Positions 32,520-35,296 of a stretch of 64,000 nt of DNA are shown here, piece by piece. The stretch spans positions 3,604,190 to 3,668,189 of the forward strand of contig NZ_KB455575.1 of NCBI RefSeq assembly GCF_000341735.1, written 5' to 3'. The notes below the pieces were generated by a model. That model did no database searches, was not told the origin of the DNA, and worked only from the letters and a program-made list of their open reading frames with translations. How positions within the stretch are numbered: the first letter of the stretch is position 1; each line of letters begins with the position of its first letter. This DNA is from Methylotuvimicrobium buryatense 5G. Lineage in GTDB: Bacteria; Pseudomonadota; Gammaproteobacteria; Methylococcales; Methylomonadaceae. The position numbers and the translations under genes are program-made.

Positions 32520-34127
32520 ATGTCAGAAAACAGTAGCGTAAAAACCCGAATCTCCGTCTTGATATTTTTTTGCGGTTTGTTCTTTTTTGTATTAGGAGTC
32601 GGGTACTCAATTTGGATACAAAACCAGTTGAATGCCGACAGCACGGCTTTCGATGCTAAATCCCAACTCGCACAAGCATCTTATACATTGCTCGGCATCA
32701 TGGCTGGATTGATAATCAGCTCCATCATAACGGTATCTGTCGCGCTGGAACGCTTTATCGCGATGCCTATTCGCGACAATCTAAAGCAGTTTAAAACCGT
32801 TCGAAAAGATCTGAATCTCCGTCTCGAACACAAACACCAAGACGAATTAGGCAGCCTGTTTGAAGCCATCAATACCTATTCGGGAAATCTTCAGCAAATC
32901 ATCGAAGAAGTTGCAAGAACATCGGACGACCTCAATGTCGCCGTCGAACAATTTGTCGGAAATACGCACCAAAGTATCGATCTTGCCCGATCTCAACAGC
33001 GAGAAACCGATCAAGTCGTCGACGCTAGCGCGCAAATGGCTGTTTCTTCGAACGAAATGGCTGAACATGCCGACGCAACTCAACAAGCCGCATCGGCAGC
33101 CAAACAGCAAACTAAAACCGGTTTGCAAGTCGTCAATCAAACGATTTCAGCAATCAGCATGTTGGCCAGTCAAATGGAATCGATGCAAGCGACGGTCACT
33201 CGGCTTGATCAAGGCAGTCACAACATCGGAGATGTTATCGATACAATCGCCAAAATTGCAGATCAAACTAATCTATTGGCACTAAATGCCGCGATAGAAG
33301 CCGCTAGAGCGGGCGAACACGGAAGAGGTTTCGCGGTCGTCGCGGACGAAGTCCGTAAACTGGCATTCGATACTCAAGAGGCCACGAAACAAATCCATGC
33401 GATCATTGTCGACCTTCAAGATTCCGCGCAAGCCGTAACCGGAGAAATCGAGCACGGCACGGCACAAGCTCACGATTGTGTCGAACAGGCCAATAAAGCC
33501 GGAGAATCGCTTCACGAAATCGATCAACGCGTCGATTCGGTTTACGACATGGGCAAACAGATTTCCACAGCGGCACGCGATCAAAATACCGTGGCAAGCG
33601 AAGTCAGCCAAAGCATGCTTCGGATCAACGAACTGGCCGAAGCCAACACGCAAGCAATGAATCAAAACAAAGATGTCAGCGACGCATTGTCGCAACGTGC
33701 TAACAAACTGGAACAATTGGTCGGCAACTTCAAAACCGATACGTTCTCGTCGAGCATGGTCGAATTCGGCCGCGACGACATCGAAAGCGCGATGCGTAAA
33801 ATGAGTGCCGCAGAGCTCGATAATATGGCTTTCGGTGCGATCGAGTTGGACCGCAACGGCCGCATTCTGCATTATAACGCGGCCGAAGGCGCGATTACCG
33901 GTCGCAACCCGAAAGAAGTCATCGGTCGCAATTTTTTTTCCGAAGTCGCCCCTTGCACCGATACGCCGAAATTCAAAGGTGAGTTTGACAAAGGCATACG
34001 GATGGGATTCTTGAATAAAAAATTCGAATACACCTTCGACTACAACATGCGCCCGACCAATGTAAAAGTCCACATGAAAAAGGCGTTGAGCGGCGATACC
34101 TATTGGATTTTCGTAAAACGCGTATGA
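32520..34127 (+). CDS. Methyl-accepting chemotaxis protein with C-terminal photoactive yellow protein domain
   Basis: 535 residues. Membrane segments at about 11-33 and 54-76 leave only about 20 periplasmic residues, so no external ligand domain. A HAMP-like region follows (about 76-128), then the receptor signalling coiled coil with the tip NLLALNAAIEAARAGEHGRG and FAVVADEVRKLA (near 255-285). Residues about 412-535 align without gaps to the 125-residue PYP of Halorhodospira halophila (own number = PYP number + 410). All chromophore contacts are kept: Tyr452 (PYP 42), Glu456 (46), Thr460 (50), Arg462 (52), Met510 (100), and the p-coumaroyl attachment Cys479 (69) in APCTD, codon 33954-33956. 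It should be a light-responsive chemoreceptor. The ligase gene overlaps its stop. Confidence 0.95.
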   Translation: MSENSSVKTRISVLIFFCGLFFFVLGVGYSIWIQNQLNADSTAFDAKSQLAQASYTLLGIMAGLIISSIITVSVALERFIAMPIRDNLKQFKTVRKDLNLRLEHKHQDELGSLFEAINTYSGNLQQIIEEVARTSDDLNVAVEQFVGNTHQSIDLARSQQRETDQVVDASAQMAVSSNEMAEHADATQQAASAAKQQTKTGLQVVNQTISAISMLASQMESMQATVTRLDQGSHNIGDVIDTIAKIADQTNLLALNAAIEAARAGEHGRGFAVVADEVRKLAFDTQEATKQIHAIIVDLQDSAQAVTGEIEHGTAQAHDCVEQANKAGESLHEIDQRVDSVYDMGKQISTAARDQNTVASEVSQSMLRINELAEANTQAMNQNKDVSDALSQRANKLEQLVGNFKTDTFSSSMVEFGRDDIESAMRKMSAAELDNMAFGAIELDRNGRILHYNAAEGAITGRNPKEVIGRNFFSEVAPCTDTPKFKGEFDKGIRMGFLNKKFEYTFDYNMRPTNVKVHMKKALSGDTYWIFVKRV

Positions 34128-35296
34128 GATGGTGGCAAGACAACGCAAATTTGCGCCGTTTTATCGTCGACTTTGTGCTCGACCATTTAGGCTCGTTACG
34201 ATTGGGAGCGCCTTTACCGTCGCCTCAATCCGTGATGCTTGCAGAAGGTTGGTGGGCTCCTCCGCTCGGCATGGATTCTCTCGAGCTCGTCGATTGCGCG
34301 AGCGCCTTTGCACAATCGCTTGCTATCAACGATAGCGGTTTAGGAGACCTGTTACTGGCCAAGCCTAGCGTCAATGGTTGGAAGGAGATTGCAACGGCCA
34401 GTCTCGAAAATTCAAGCCATACACTTCGTTTCCGAAGTTCCGGCTCGACCGGAAAAGCGCATTCTGTAACGCTCCCTTATGCCCACATAGAACAGGAAGC
34501 CCGATTCATCGCGAATAACTTGTTTAGCCTACATTGTCCCGCGCCACGGATTTGGTCGCTGGTTCCGGCCCATCATATCTACGGCTTCGTTTTCACGATG
34601 GTAGTCCCTACTCAAATGCGGGAATACCCGACCATAATCGACGCACGGCAGCGTTTACCGATTTCAATCGAACAGAGCTTGCGATCCGGTGACATTGTCG
34701 TCGCTGTACCGGATTTTTGGAGGCTCTGGATTAAAACCGGGTTGCGTCTTCAAAAAGATATCACGGTCGTTAGCGCGGCCGCATCCTGTGAAACCGATGT
34801 GCTGCTGGAACTAATAGGGCAAGGGGCGAATGTTATCGAAATATATGGAGCGACTGAAACCGGCGGCATCGGTTATCGTCAGCATCCGAACGAACCATTT
34901 ACTGTAATGCCGCATTGGCGAGCTGAAGGAGAATGTTTAATAGGGCATTACCTCGAAGCGACTGTCCCCGATCATTTGGCGTGGCTAGATACCAACCGAT
35001 TCGATATAAAAGGACGCAAAGACGGCAAAATTCAAATCGGTGGCATCAACATTTGTCCCAATGAAATCGCAGCATTGATCAAACAGCATAATGCCGTCGA
35101 GGACGCCATCGTCAGATTTGACGGAAGTCGTCTAAAAGCCTATGTGATTCCGAAAAACCTTCAATCATCGCAAGAACTGATAAGCGACTTATCGGTATGG
35201 TTATCACAACAACTGCCCGCCACCCATATCCCGAAACATTTTACGATCGGTTTGCAACTACCCCGTAATACGATGGGTAAATTGCGAGACTGGTAA
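34124..35296 (+). CDS. pcl: p-Coumarate:CoA ligase-like adenylate-forming enzyme (PYP chromophore activation)
   Basis: 390-residue AMP-forming ligase. Core motifs: A3 FRSSGSTGKAHSV near 104, A5 YGATETGGIGY near 240, A7/A8 FDIKGRKDGKIQIGGINICP near 297, and A10 NTMGKLRDW with the catalytic Lys near the end. It is shorter than plant 4-coumarate:CoA ligases and has an unusual N-terminus, as in the pCL enzymes of PYP operons in Rhodobacter. Its ATG overlaps the chemoreceptor stop (ATGA), so the two are translated together. It would make p-coumaroyl-CoA for attachment to Cys479. No tyrosine ammonia lyase is in the window, so the coumarate source is elsewhere. The first in-frame start at 34103 is rejected because it lies inside the PYP coding end. 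Confidence 0.88.
   Translation: MRWWQDNANLRRFIVDFVLDHLGSLRLGAPLPSPQSVMLAEGWWAPPLGMDSLELVDCASAFAQSLAINDSGLGDLLLAKPSVNGWKEIATASLENSSHTLRFRSSGSTGKAHSVTLPYAHIEQEARFIANNLFSLHCPAPRIWSLVPAHHIYGFVFTMVVPTQMREYPTIIDARQRLPISIEQSLRSGDIVVAVPDFWRLWIKTGLRLQKDITVVSAAASCETDVLLELIGQGANVIEIYGATETGGIGYRQHPNEPFTVMPHWRAEGECLIGHYLEATVPDHLAWLDTNRFDIKGRKDGKIQIGGINICPNEIAALIKQHNAVEDAIVRFDGSRLKAYVIPKNLQSSQELISDLSVWLSQQLPATHIPKHFTIGLQLPRNTMGKLRDW

Follow-up and report, generated by a model that had tools for sequence, protein, structure and literature searches.

A chemoreceptor fused to photoactive yellow protein in Methylotuvimicrobium buryatense 5G, its overlapping CoA ligase gene and a candidate chromophore source in an aryl-polyene-like gene cluster

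We analysed a stretch of 64,000 nucleotides from Methylotuvimicrobium buryatense 5G (GCF_000341735.1, contig NZ_KB455575.1, positions 3,604,190 to 3,668,189; hereafter the window), whose source genome comprises 5.07 Mb in two contigs. It contains a gene for a methyl-accepting chemotaxis protein (MCP) that ends in a complete photoactive yellow protein (PYP); the next gene, which overlaps it, encodes an adenylate-forming ligase (Table 1). The PYP of H. halophila (structure 2kx6) matches receptor residues 412–535 without gaps (E 2.8e-52), exactly as an earlier note made from the sequence had claimed, and the best structure match, 1otd, starts at residue 414 with an E-value (2.9e-54) that rules out a chance resemblance. 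Under the numbering own number = PYP + 410, all 12 positions examined for the pocket and photocycle are conserved (Ile31, Tyr42, Glu46, Thr50, Arg52, Phe62, Val66, Ala67, Pro68, Cys69, Phe96 and Met100); the chromophore residues Cys69, Tyr42 and Glu46, by which members of the PYP family are recognized, lie within a full-length domain. The remainder of the protein is a chemoreceptor, in which MCPsignal was matched with 146.7 bits (E 8.1e-43; cut-off 34.6) and the invariant tip columns are kept, whilst a HAMP match stays under its Pfam cut-off. Two hydrophobic segments are separated by ~27 residues on the hydropathy profile, close to the roughly 20 periplasmic residues that the earlier note had placed between two membrane helices. 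The coordinates, frame, numbering, conserved PYP residues and signalling tip that it described were likewise confirmed. An AlphaFold2 model (mean predicted local distance difference test score, pLDDT, 68; predicted template modelling score, pTM, 0.31) gives a helix over residues 265–405, an unordered linker and a PYP fold. Scanning for promoters and terminators around the receptor–ligase pair returned fewer sites than in shuffled sequence and was uninformative, and neither tRNA genes nor Rfam families were detected in the window.

Table 1. Features of the receptor–ligase pair, in window coordinates
Feature	Position	Strand	Basis
MCP–PYP fusion receptor, 535 aa	32520..34127	+	Open reading frame (ORF); MCPsignal and PAS domain matches; PYP structure matches
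Transmembrane segment 1, residues 11–29	32550..32606	+	Hydropathy
Transmembrane segment 2, residues 57–75	32688..32744	+	Hydropathy
HAMP-like region, residues 91–126	32790..32897	+	Pfam match, 20.2 bits (cut-off 25)
MCP signalling domain with conserved tip, residues 190–372	33087..33635	+	Pfam
Short linker at native receptor C-terminus, residues 402–412	33723..33755	+	Junction alignment; AlphaFold2 pLDDT <50
Complete PYP domain, residues 411–535	33750..34124	+	PYP structure matches; alignment
Cys479 codon (= PYP Cys69), predicted p-coumarate attachment site	33954..33956	+	Residue numbering against PYP
Adenylate-forming ligase, 390 aa, nearest to short 4-coumarate--CoA ligases	34124..35296	+	ORF; family scans

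The arrangement of a fusion receptor in an operon with a ligase, also proposed in the earlier note, was borne out: the receptor is a single ORF, and the ligase ATG at 34124 lies within an ATGA, so that the two genes share 4 nt at the receptor stop. The naming of that ligase as a p-coumarate:CoA ligase stands only in part. Scanned without its first codon, the ligase fell by far best into TIGR02372 (4-coumarate--CoA ligase) with 254.2 bits, the runner-up family reaching 59.5, but this score is short of the curated cut-off of 334.7; as such, the name is used here as that of the best family and not of a passed test. The same family came out on top for all four of the MCP–PYP-linked ligases scanned, none of them above the cut-off. 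In every one of eight further MCP–PYP loci a same-strand ligase gene lies directly 3′ of the fusion, at distances from a 4-nt overlap to a spacing of a few nucleotides (taking an ATG inside the listed frame for loci L098 and L015). As loci L014 and L015 duplicate genomes G220 and G162, these eight represent six distinct genomes, and with the window the ligase gene adjoins the MCP–PYP gene in 7/7 genomes. For PYPs more generally, a p-coumarate:CoA ligase gene has been described near at least 30 % of functional members (PMC9664959).

The surroundings of the pair differ from genome to genome. In the window it is flanked by a sensor kinase gene and a GDSL-type gene; in G217, G220 and G221 it adjoins genes that by eye resemble those for glycolate oxidase subunits; and it sits in yet other surroundings in two g17 genomes and in Nitrincola. 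Moreover, G217, G220 and G221 possess the kinase and FAD-binding genes that flank the pair in the window with no pair between them. The receptor and ligase genes therefore appear to be a cassette that travelled as one unit.

Several further features of this neighbourhood were recorded. The space separating the sensor kinase from the receptor holds a repeat of ~80 bases (window 32298–32378), palindromic by eye. At least 70 pieces of the genome match it, a count for which 40 of 501 candidates were scored, and it could be a small mobile repeat. Upstream, a same-strand run at window 25351–32296 encodes an amine-oxidase-like FAD protein, DUF1365, CMAS and DUF2878 proteins, a DUF1295–CMAS fusion and the sensor kinase, and resembles a cyclopropane-lipid operon ending in its own kinase. 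In three same-genus genomes, a gene for a second type of blue-light sensor, BLUF–PsiE, is found 6–7 kb from the MCP–PYP pair (L148:16768–17652, the copy on which Pfam was run, and the similar genes L149:174–1058 and L152:17524–18408).

Fusions of this kind are already in print. An MCP–PYP was noted in Methylomicrobium alcaliphilum, probably a near relative of the organism studied here (G4T070, as cited in PMC12826048), and Dohmen et al. (2025; PMC12826048) describe 12, all with PYP C-terminal to the MCP part in a single open frame, which is also the arrangement seen here. The order of parts is the same in all of these, some of which have two transmembrane helices and HAMP; within the published description we found no architectural difference from the window protein, which may itself be among the 12. 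It is therefore a further member of a published fusion type, and the search for such architectures that the earlier note had suggested found them in that paper as well as in other genomes. A characterized relative is that of Nitrincola alkalilacustris, whose expressed PYP domain is photoactive, absorbing at 447 nm and completing its photocycle in 0.5 s (PMC12826048), whereas the domain of the window is known from sequence. Both belong to the same fusion family and share the downstream ligase type, and the receptor half at locus L049 (same species, other strain record) is 56 % identical to that of the window. The Nitrincola fusion is shorter by 16 residues ahead of the signalling part, and the alignment shows a gap of four residues in the PYP cap. 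PYP is likewise the light input of the multi-domain proteins Ppr (PYP–phytochrome–kinase) and Ppd (PYP–phytochrome–GGDEF/EAL), but there it is N-terminal and the outputs are a kinase or cyclic di-GMP (PMC12826048). In sensory rhodopsin–Htr pairs light also reaches CheA via an MCP-type transducer, although from a separate membrane photoreceptor rather than a fused PYP (PMC12826048).

Within the order, PYP was detected in six of 311 genomes, the window included (E <1e-10), which belong to two genera. All six matches lie in frames of 538–565 codons, the five others also reading as MCP–PYP; thus PYP in the order always occurs as the fusion (6/6). Members of the family are methanotrophs, and the group has cultivated representatives. 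Among named GTDB genomes, in a scan that may omit the window's own and nearest records, three of the best 80 of 298 PYP-relative stretches sit in an MCP frame, namely L014, L015 (Methylomonas sp. SURF-1) and L049 (Nitrincola alkalilacustris). The window protein is 73–74 % identical to three orthologues (L094, L097 and L014).

A PYP requires p-coumarate, and the look for an aromatic ammonia lyase that the earlier note had proposed found one such gene in the genome (C1:2978155–2979549), on the same contig and ~657 kb from the receptor. Its product matches PF00221 with 558 bits and retains the Ala-Ser-Gly of the MIO group. Neighbouring genes encode a ketosynthase N-terminal protein, two acyl carrier proteins, an AMP-ligase fused to an ApeI-like domain, a glycosyltransferase, an acyltransferase and a thioesterase; we read this as an aryl-polyene-like pigment set, the aryl polyene product being our own reading of the gene content. 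The lyase, AMP-ligase and acyltransferase occur together in all five other PYP genomes. A same-genus genome, G218 (L136, L162), rated 100 % complete, has the cluster (lyase, AMP-ligase and thioesterase) and no PYP match, and would serve as a natural control strain.

The obvious other identity for such an enzyme, the histidine ammonia lyase HutH, was ruled out by three observations. Against the HutH model TIGR01225 the lyase scored 438 bits (cut-off 539), whilst a control of the HutH type, L100, passed with 676.7 bits; both selectivity motifs differ; and urocanase was found in none of the six PYP genomes of the order. At motif 2, among the 30 lyases whose loci were retrieved, Gln is present in 27/27 of the window type, the window-genome lyase included, and Glu in 3/3 of the HutH type; Gln in place of Glu at this position is the published selectivity rule for tyrosine ammonia-lyase (TAL; PMC3992019). 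Motif 1 reads Phe-His in the window-type lyases (25 readable of 27, two rows being gapped) and Ser-His in the three of HutH type. A precedent is offered by the flexirubin cluster of Chitinophaga pinensis, an aryl-polyene cluster that likewise combines an aromatic ammonia lyase and a ligase (FlxA/FlxY), and in which FlxA is a TAL despite a motif 1 resembling that of histidine ammonia-lyase (PMC3992019). There are differences, in that the window-genome lyase reaches 343 bits with the FlxA model, whose cut-off is 700, and the excerpt of that paper mentions no PYP for the flexirubin cluster. A search of open-licence papers found none that contains 'photoactive yellow protein' together with 'aryl polyene'. 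Given the pigment-like cluster, the departure from the HutH type, the lack of urocanase in the PYP genomes and the FlxA precedent, p-coumarate probably comes from pigment synthesis, with TAL activity predicted for the lyase. Across the order PF00221 was found in 87/311 genomes, comprising 6/6 with PYP and 81/305 without; this co-occurrence (Fisher p 0.0004) is not independent evidence, because the six genomes fall in two genera.

The receptor half has relatives that lack PYP. A search that scored the 7997 candidates sharing most words with the window receptor yielded 17 nearest PYP-free receptors (P0137–P0153), 43–54 % identical over 97–100 % of window residues 60–400. Thirteen of these are 641–655 aa long, and 13/17 carry dCache_3 (PF14827), a periplasmic sensor domain absent from the window protein, in precomputed annotation; of two that we scanned with Pfam, P0144 has the domain and P0137 does not. 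Aligning eight of the 17 across the junction gave, ahead of one shared alignment point, 371 residues in five of them (330, 286 and 228 in the others) against 129 in the window protein, which thus has 242 fewer N-terminal residues than the relatives of ~648 aa. At the other end all eight stop at, or one residue beyond, the column where the fusion continues into PYP, and the alignment places the PYP junction at the receptor's native C-terminus. Most likely, then, the fusion formed when a receptor of the 648-aa type lost its periplasmic sensor and gained PYP at that native C-terminus, a direction we infer from the alignment. Among 15 other receptor frames compared from the organism's own genome there is no close PYP-free twin, the nearest being L147 (35 % over 352 aa).

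Whether the C-terminal placement of PYP in all MCP–PYPs reflects mechanism or one inherited event was asked, and left open, by Dohmen et al. (2025; PMC12826048). A second set of fusions bears on this question: P0008 and P0010–P0015 provide seven receptor halves, P0012 and a fragment, P0016, being labelled Campylobacterota. In this set the tip-to-PYP distance is 108–114 residues, against 147–150 in the window's family, and the seven halves score only 82–95 bits against the window receptor (ranks 32–40 of a 44-row panel), below 9/15 of the other receptor frames in the window's own genome. The 17 PYP-free relatives score 249–336 bits, but as resemblance to the window receptor was what they had been picked for, a fair comparison is offered by the own-genome receptors alone.

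Trees were less decisive, four tests of independent fusion disagreeing with one another. For the PYP domain (20 fusions and 54 solo PYPs) a single fusion clade was rejected by the approximately unbiased test (p-AU 0.0054, bootstrap support being unsettled), and in the best tree, subject to the same reservation, a supported branch separates the two families. Before this first tree we removed P0001 (same as the window), P0009 (a possible chimera), L096, identical rows including L015, and the fragment P0016, as well as solo PYPs at ≥80 % identity, which left 54 of 186. The second family as one clade was not rejected (p 0.242), though its members were not recovered together. A single fusion clade was no longer rejected once CF_P0014, CF_P0015 and S_P0020 were dropped and 80 solos used (p-AU 0.197), nor by the receptor tree of 54 rows, which has long branches (p 0.066), nor by a reduced one of 26 rows (p 0.263). 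These last three results leave room for a different history, in which one fusion was ancestral to all MCP–PYPs and the receptor half of the second family was replaced later. A side observation shows what such a swap could look like: two metagenomic MCP–PYPs, P0009 and P0010, do not differ over the 255 C-terminal residues that start at the receptor tip but do so before it, a pattern possibly due to an assembly join or to recombination at the tip. The rejection of the clade of 20, the low scores of the second-family receptor halves and the unequal tip-to-PYP lengths all speak against a single origin, which we regard as unlikely, if worth keeping in view. We base repeated fusion on the ranking of backbone similarity and the tip-to-PYP length, and not on the trees; on these grounds MCP–PYP is likely, though not proven, to have arisen by repeated fusion onto unrelated receptor backbones.

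With respect to output, chemotaxis genes, which the earlier note had proposed seeking, are present. Their absence, or that of any ammonia lyase, would by that note have refuted its reading, and neither condition applies. A flagellar/che cluster (L129) has as its best NCBIfam matches FlhA, FlhF, FliA, CheY, CheZ, CheA, CheB, two motor proteins and CheW, of which CheZ, CheA (C1:4814856–4817141) and CheW fall under their family cut-offs. Genome-wide there are 17 CheW-domain and 17 MCPsignal matches, and six open frames of CheA length (689–822 codons) with a CheW domain lie at separate places, the CheA family scan having been made on the L129 frame; these numbers suggest several chemosensory systems. 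Receptor frames of 801–1012 codons (L138, L139 and L146) add to what is, with the CheA-length frames, a large chemosensory set. It is conceivable that the fusion is a light-modulated receptor feeding a non-flagellar pathway, such as one for pili or cyclic di-GMP; the scattered CheA-length frames are compatible with this, and in other bacteria PYP controls biofilm formation or gene expression (PMC12826048). On the other hand, a flagellar che cluster exists, and receptor residues 46–405 align to residues 190–549 of 6s18, an aromatic acid chemoreceptor, with 360 residues on either side. As 6s18 is a motility receptor of Pseudomonas, the equal spans fit a motility receptor, so that a non-flagellar output seems to us distinctly improbable.

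The explanation that we prefer is that of a blue-light receptor of 648-aa-type origin, carrying a chromophore from the pigment cluster and shifting CheA and flagellar rotation, and as a whole we hold it with reasonable confidence. The lyase of the aryl-polyene-like cluster would make p-coumarate from tyrosine, the ligase encoded next to the receptor would convert this to p-coumaroyl-CoA, and the latter would load receptor Cys479. The photocycle of PYP loosens its N-terminal cap; in the fusion, where ~10 linker residues connect the cap with the end of the signalling helix, such loosening would shift CheA between its on and off states. Since hardly any of the receptor lies in the periplasm, its main input would be light, and cells could probably use the receptor to steer by blue light. 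Blue-light control of CheA, which the earlier note had also proposed, is thus inferred from the parts. One published table lists Methylomicrobium under phototaxis (PMC6273459), and in the open-licence literature on phototaxis in methanotrophs none of the titles listed concerned such a receptor.

Several observations weigh against this explanation. No phototaxis was detected in Nitrincola alkalilacustris, the MCP–PYP organism that has been tested (PMC12826048). The ligase and the lyase both lie below every curated cut-off, and motif 1 of the window-genome lyase reads Phe-His, whereas the TAL form begins with His. PF00221 proteins in so many PYP-free genomes (three loci reading as HutH-type) indicate that the lyase is not reserved for PYP, and our claim is therefore one of sharing. 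Furthermore, the AlphaFold2 model is weak, with several low-confidence stretches besides the linker, and the linker is disordered and forms no rigid helix, so that signal transfer lacks a structural explanation. One might go further and suppose that the domain carries no p-coumarate here and acts as a structural or redox module, given that no lyase gene adjoins the receptor, that the ligase misses its cut-off and that Cys69 has been lost from some PYP homologues (PMC9664959). Yet Cys69, Tyr42, Glu46, Thr50, Arg52, Phe62 and Met100 are kept in 24/24 fusion rows (window and duplicates counted), the ligase gene is adjacent in all seven genomes and a lyase occurs in each of the six PYP genomes of the order; an unloaded domain is, in our judgement, very improbable.

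What this analysis adds is the distribution of the fusion in the order, the junction at the native C-terminus, the second receptor backbone and the link to a pigment-cluster lyase. The most inclusive statement, that PYP was grafted at least twice onto the C-termini of unrelated MCPs, that the methanotroph receptor lost its outside sensor and that the chromophore comes from an aryl-polyene pathway, is one for which we see the case as evenly balanced. These findings bear on how PYP, a model photoreceptor, passes on its signal. The receptor halves of the two families are no closer to each other than the window receptor is to other receptors of its own genome, which argues for repeated fusion, and repeated fusion in turn argues for a mechanism that favours the C-terminal placement of PYP. 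If the proposed chromophore supply is true, light steering and a pigment would share one precursor in these methanotrophs.

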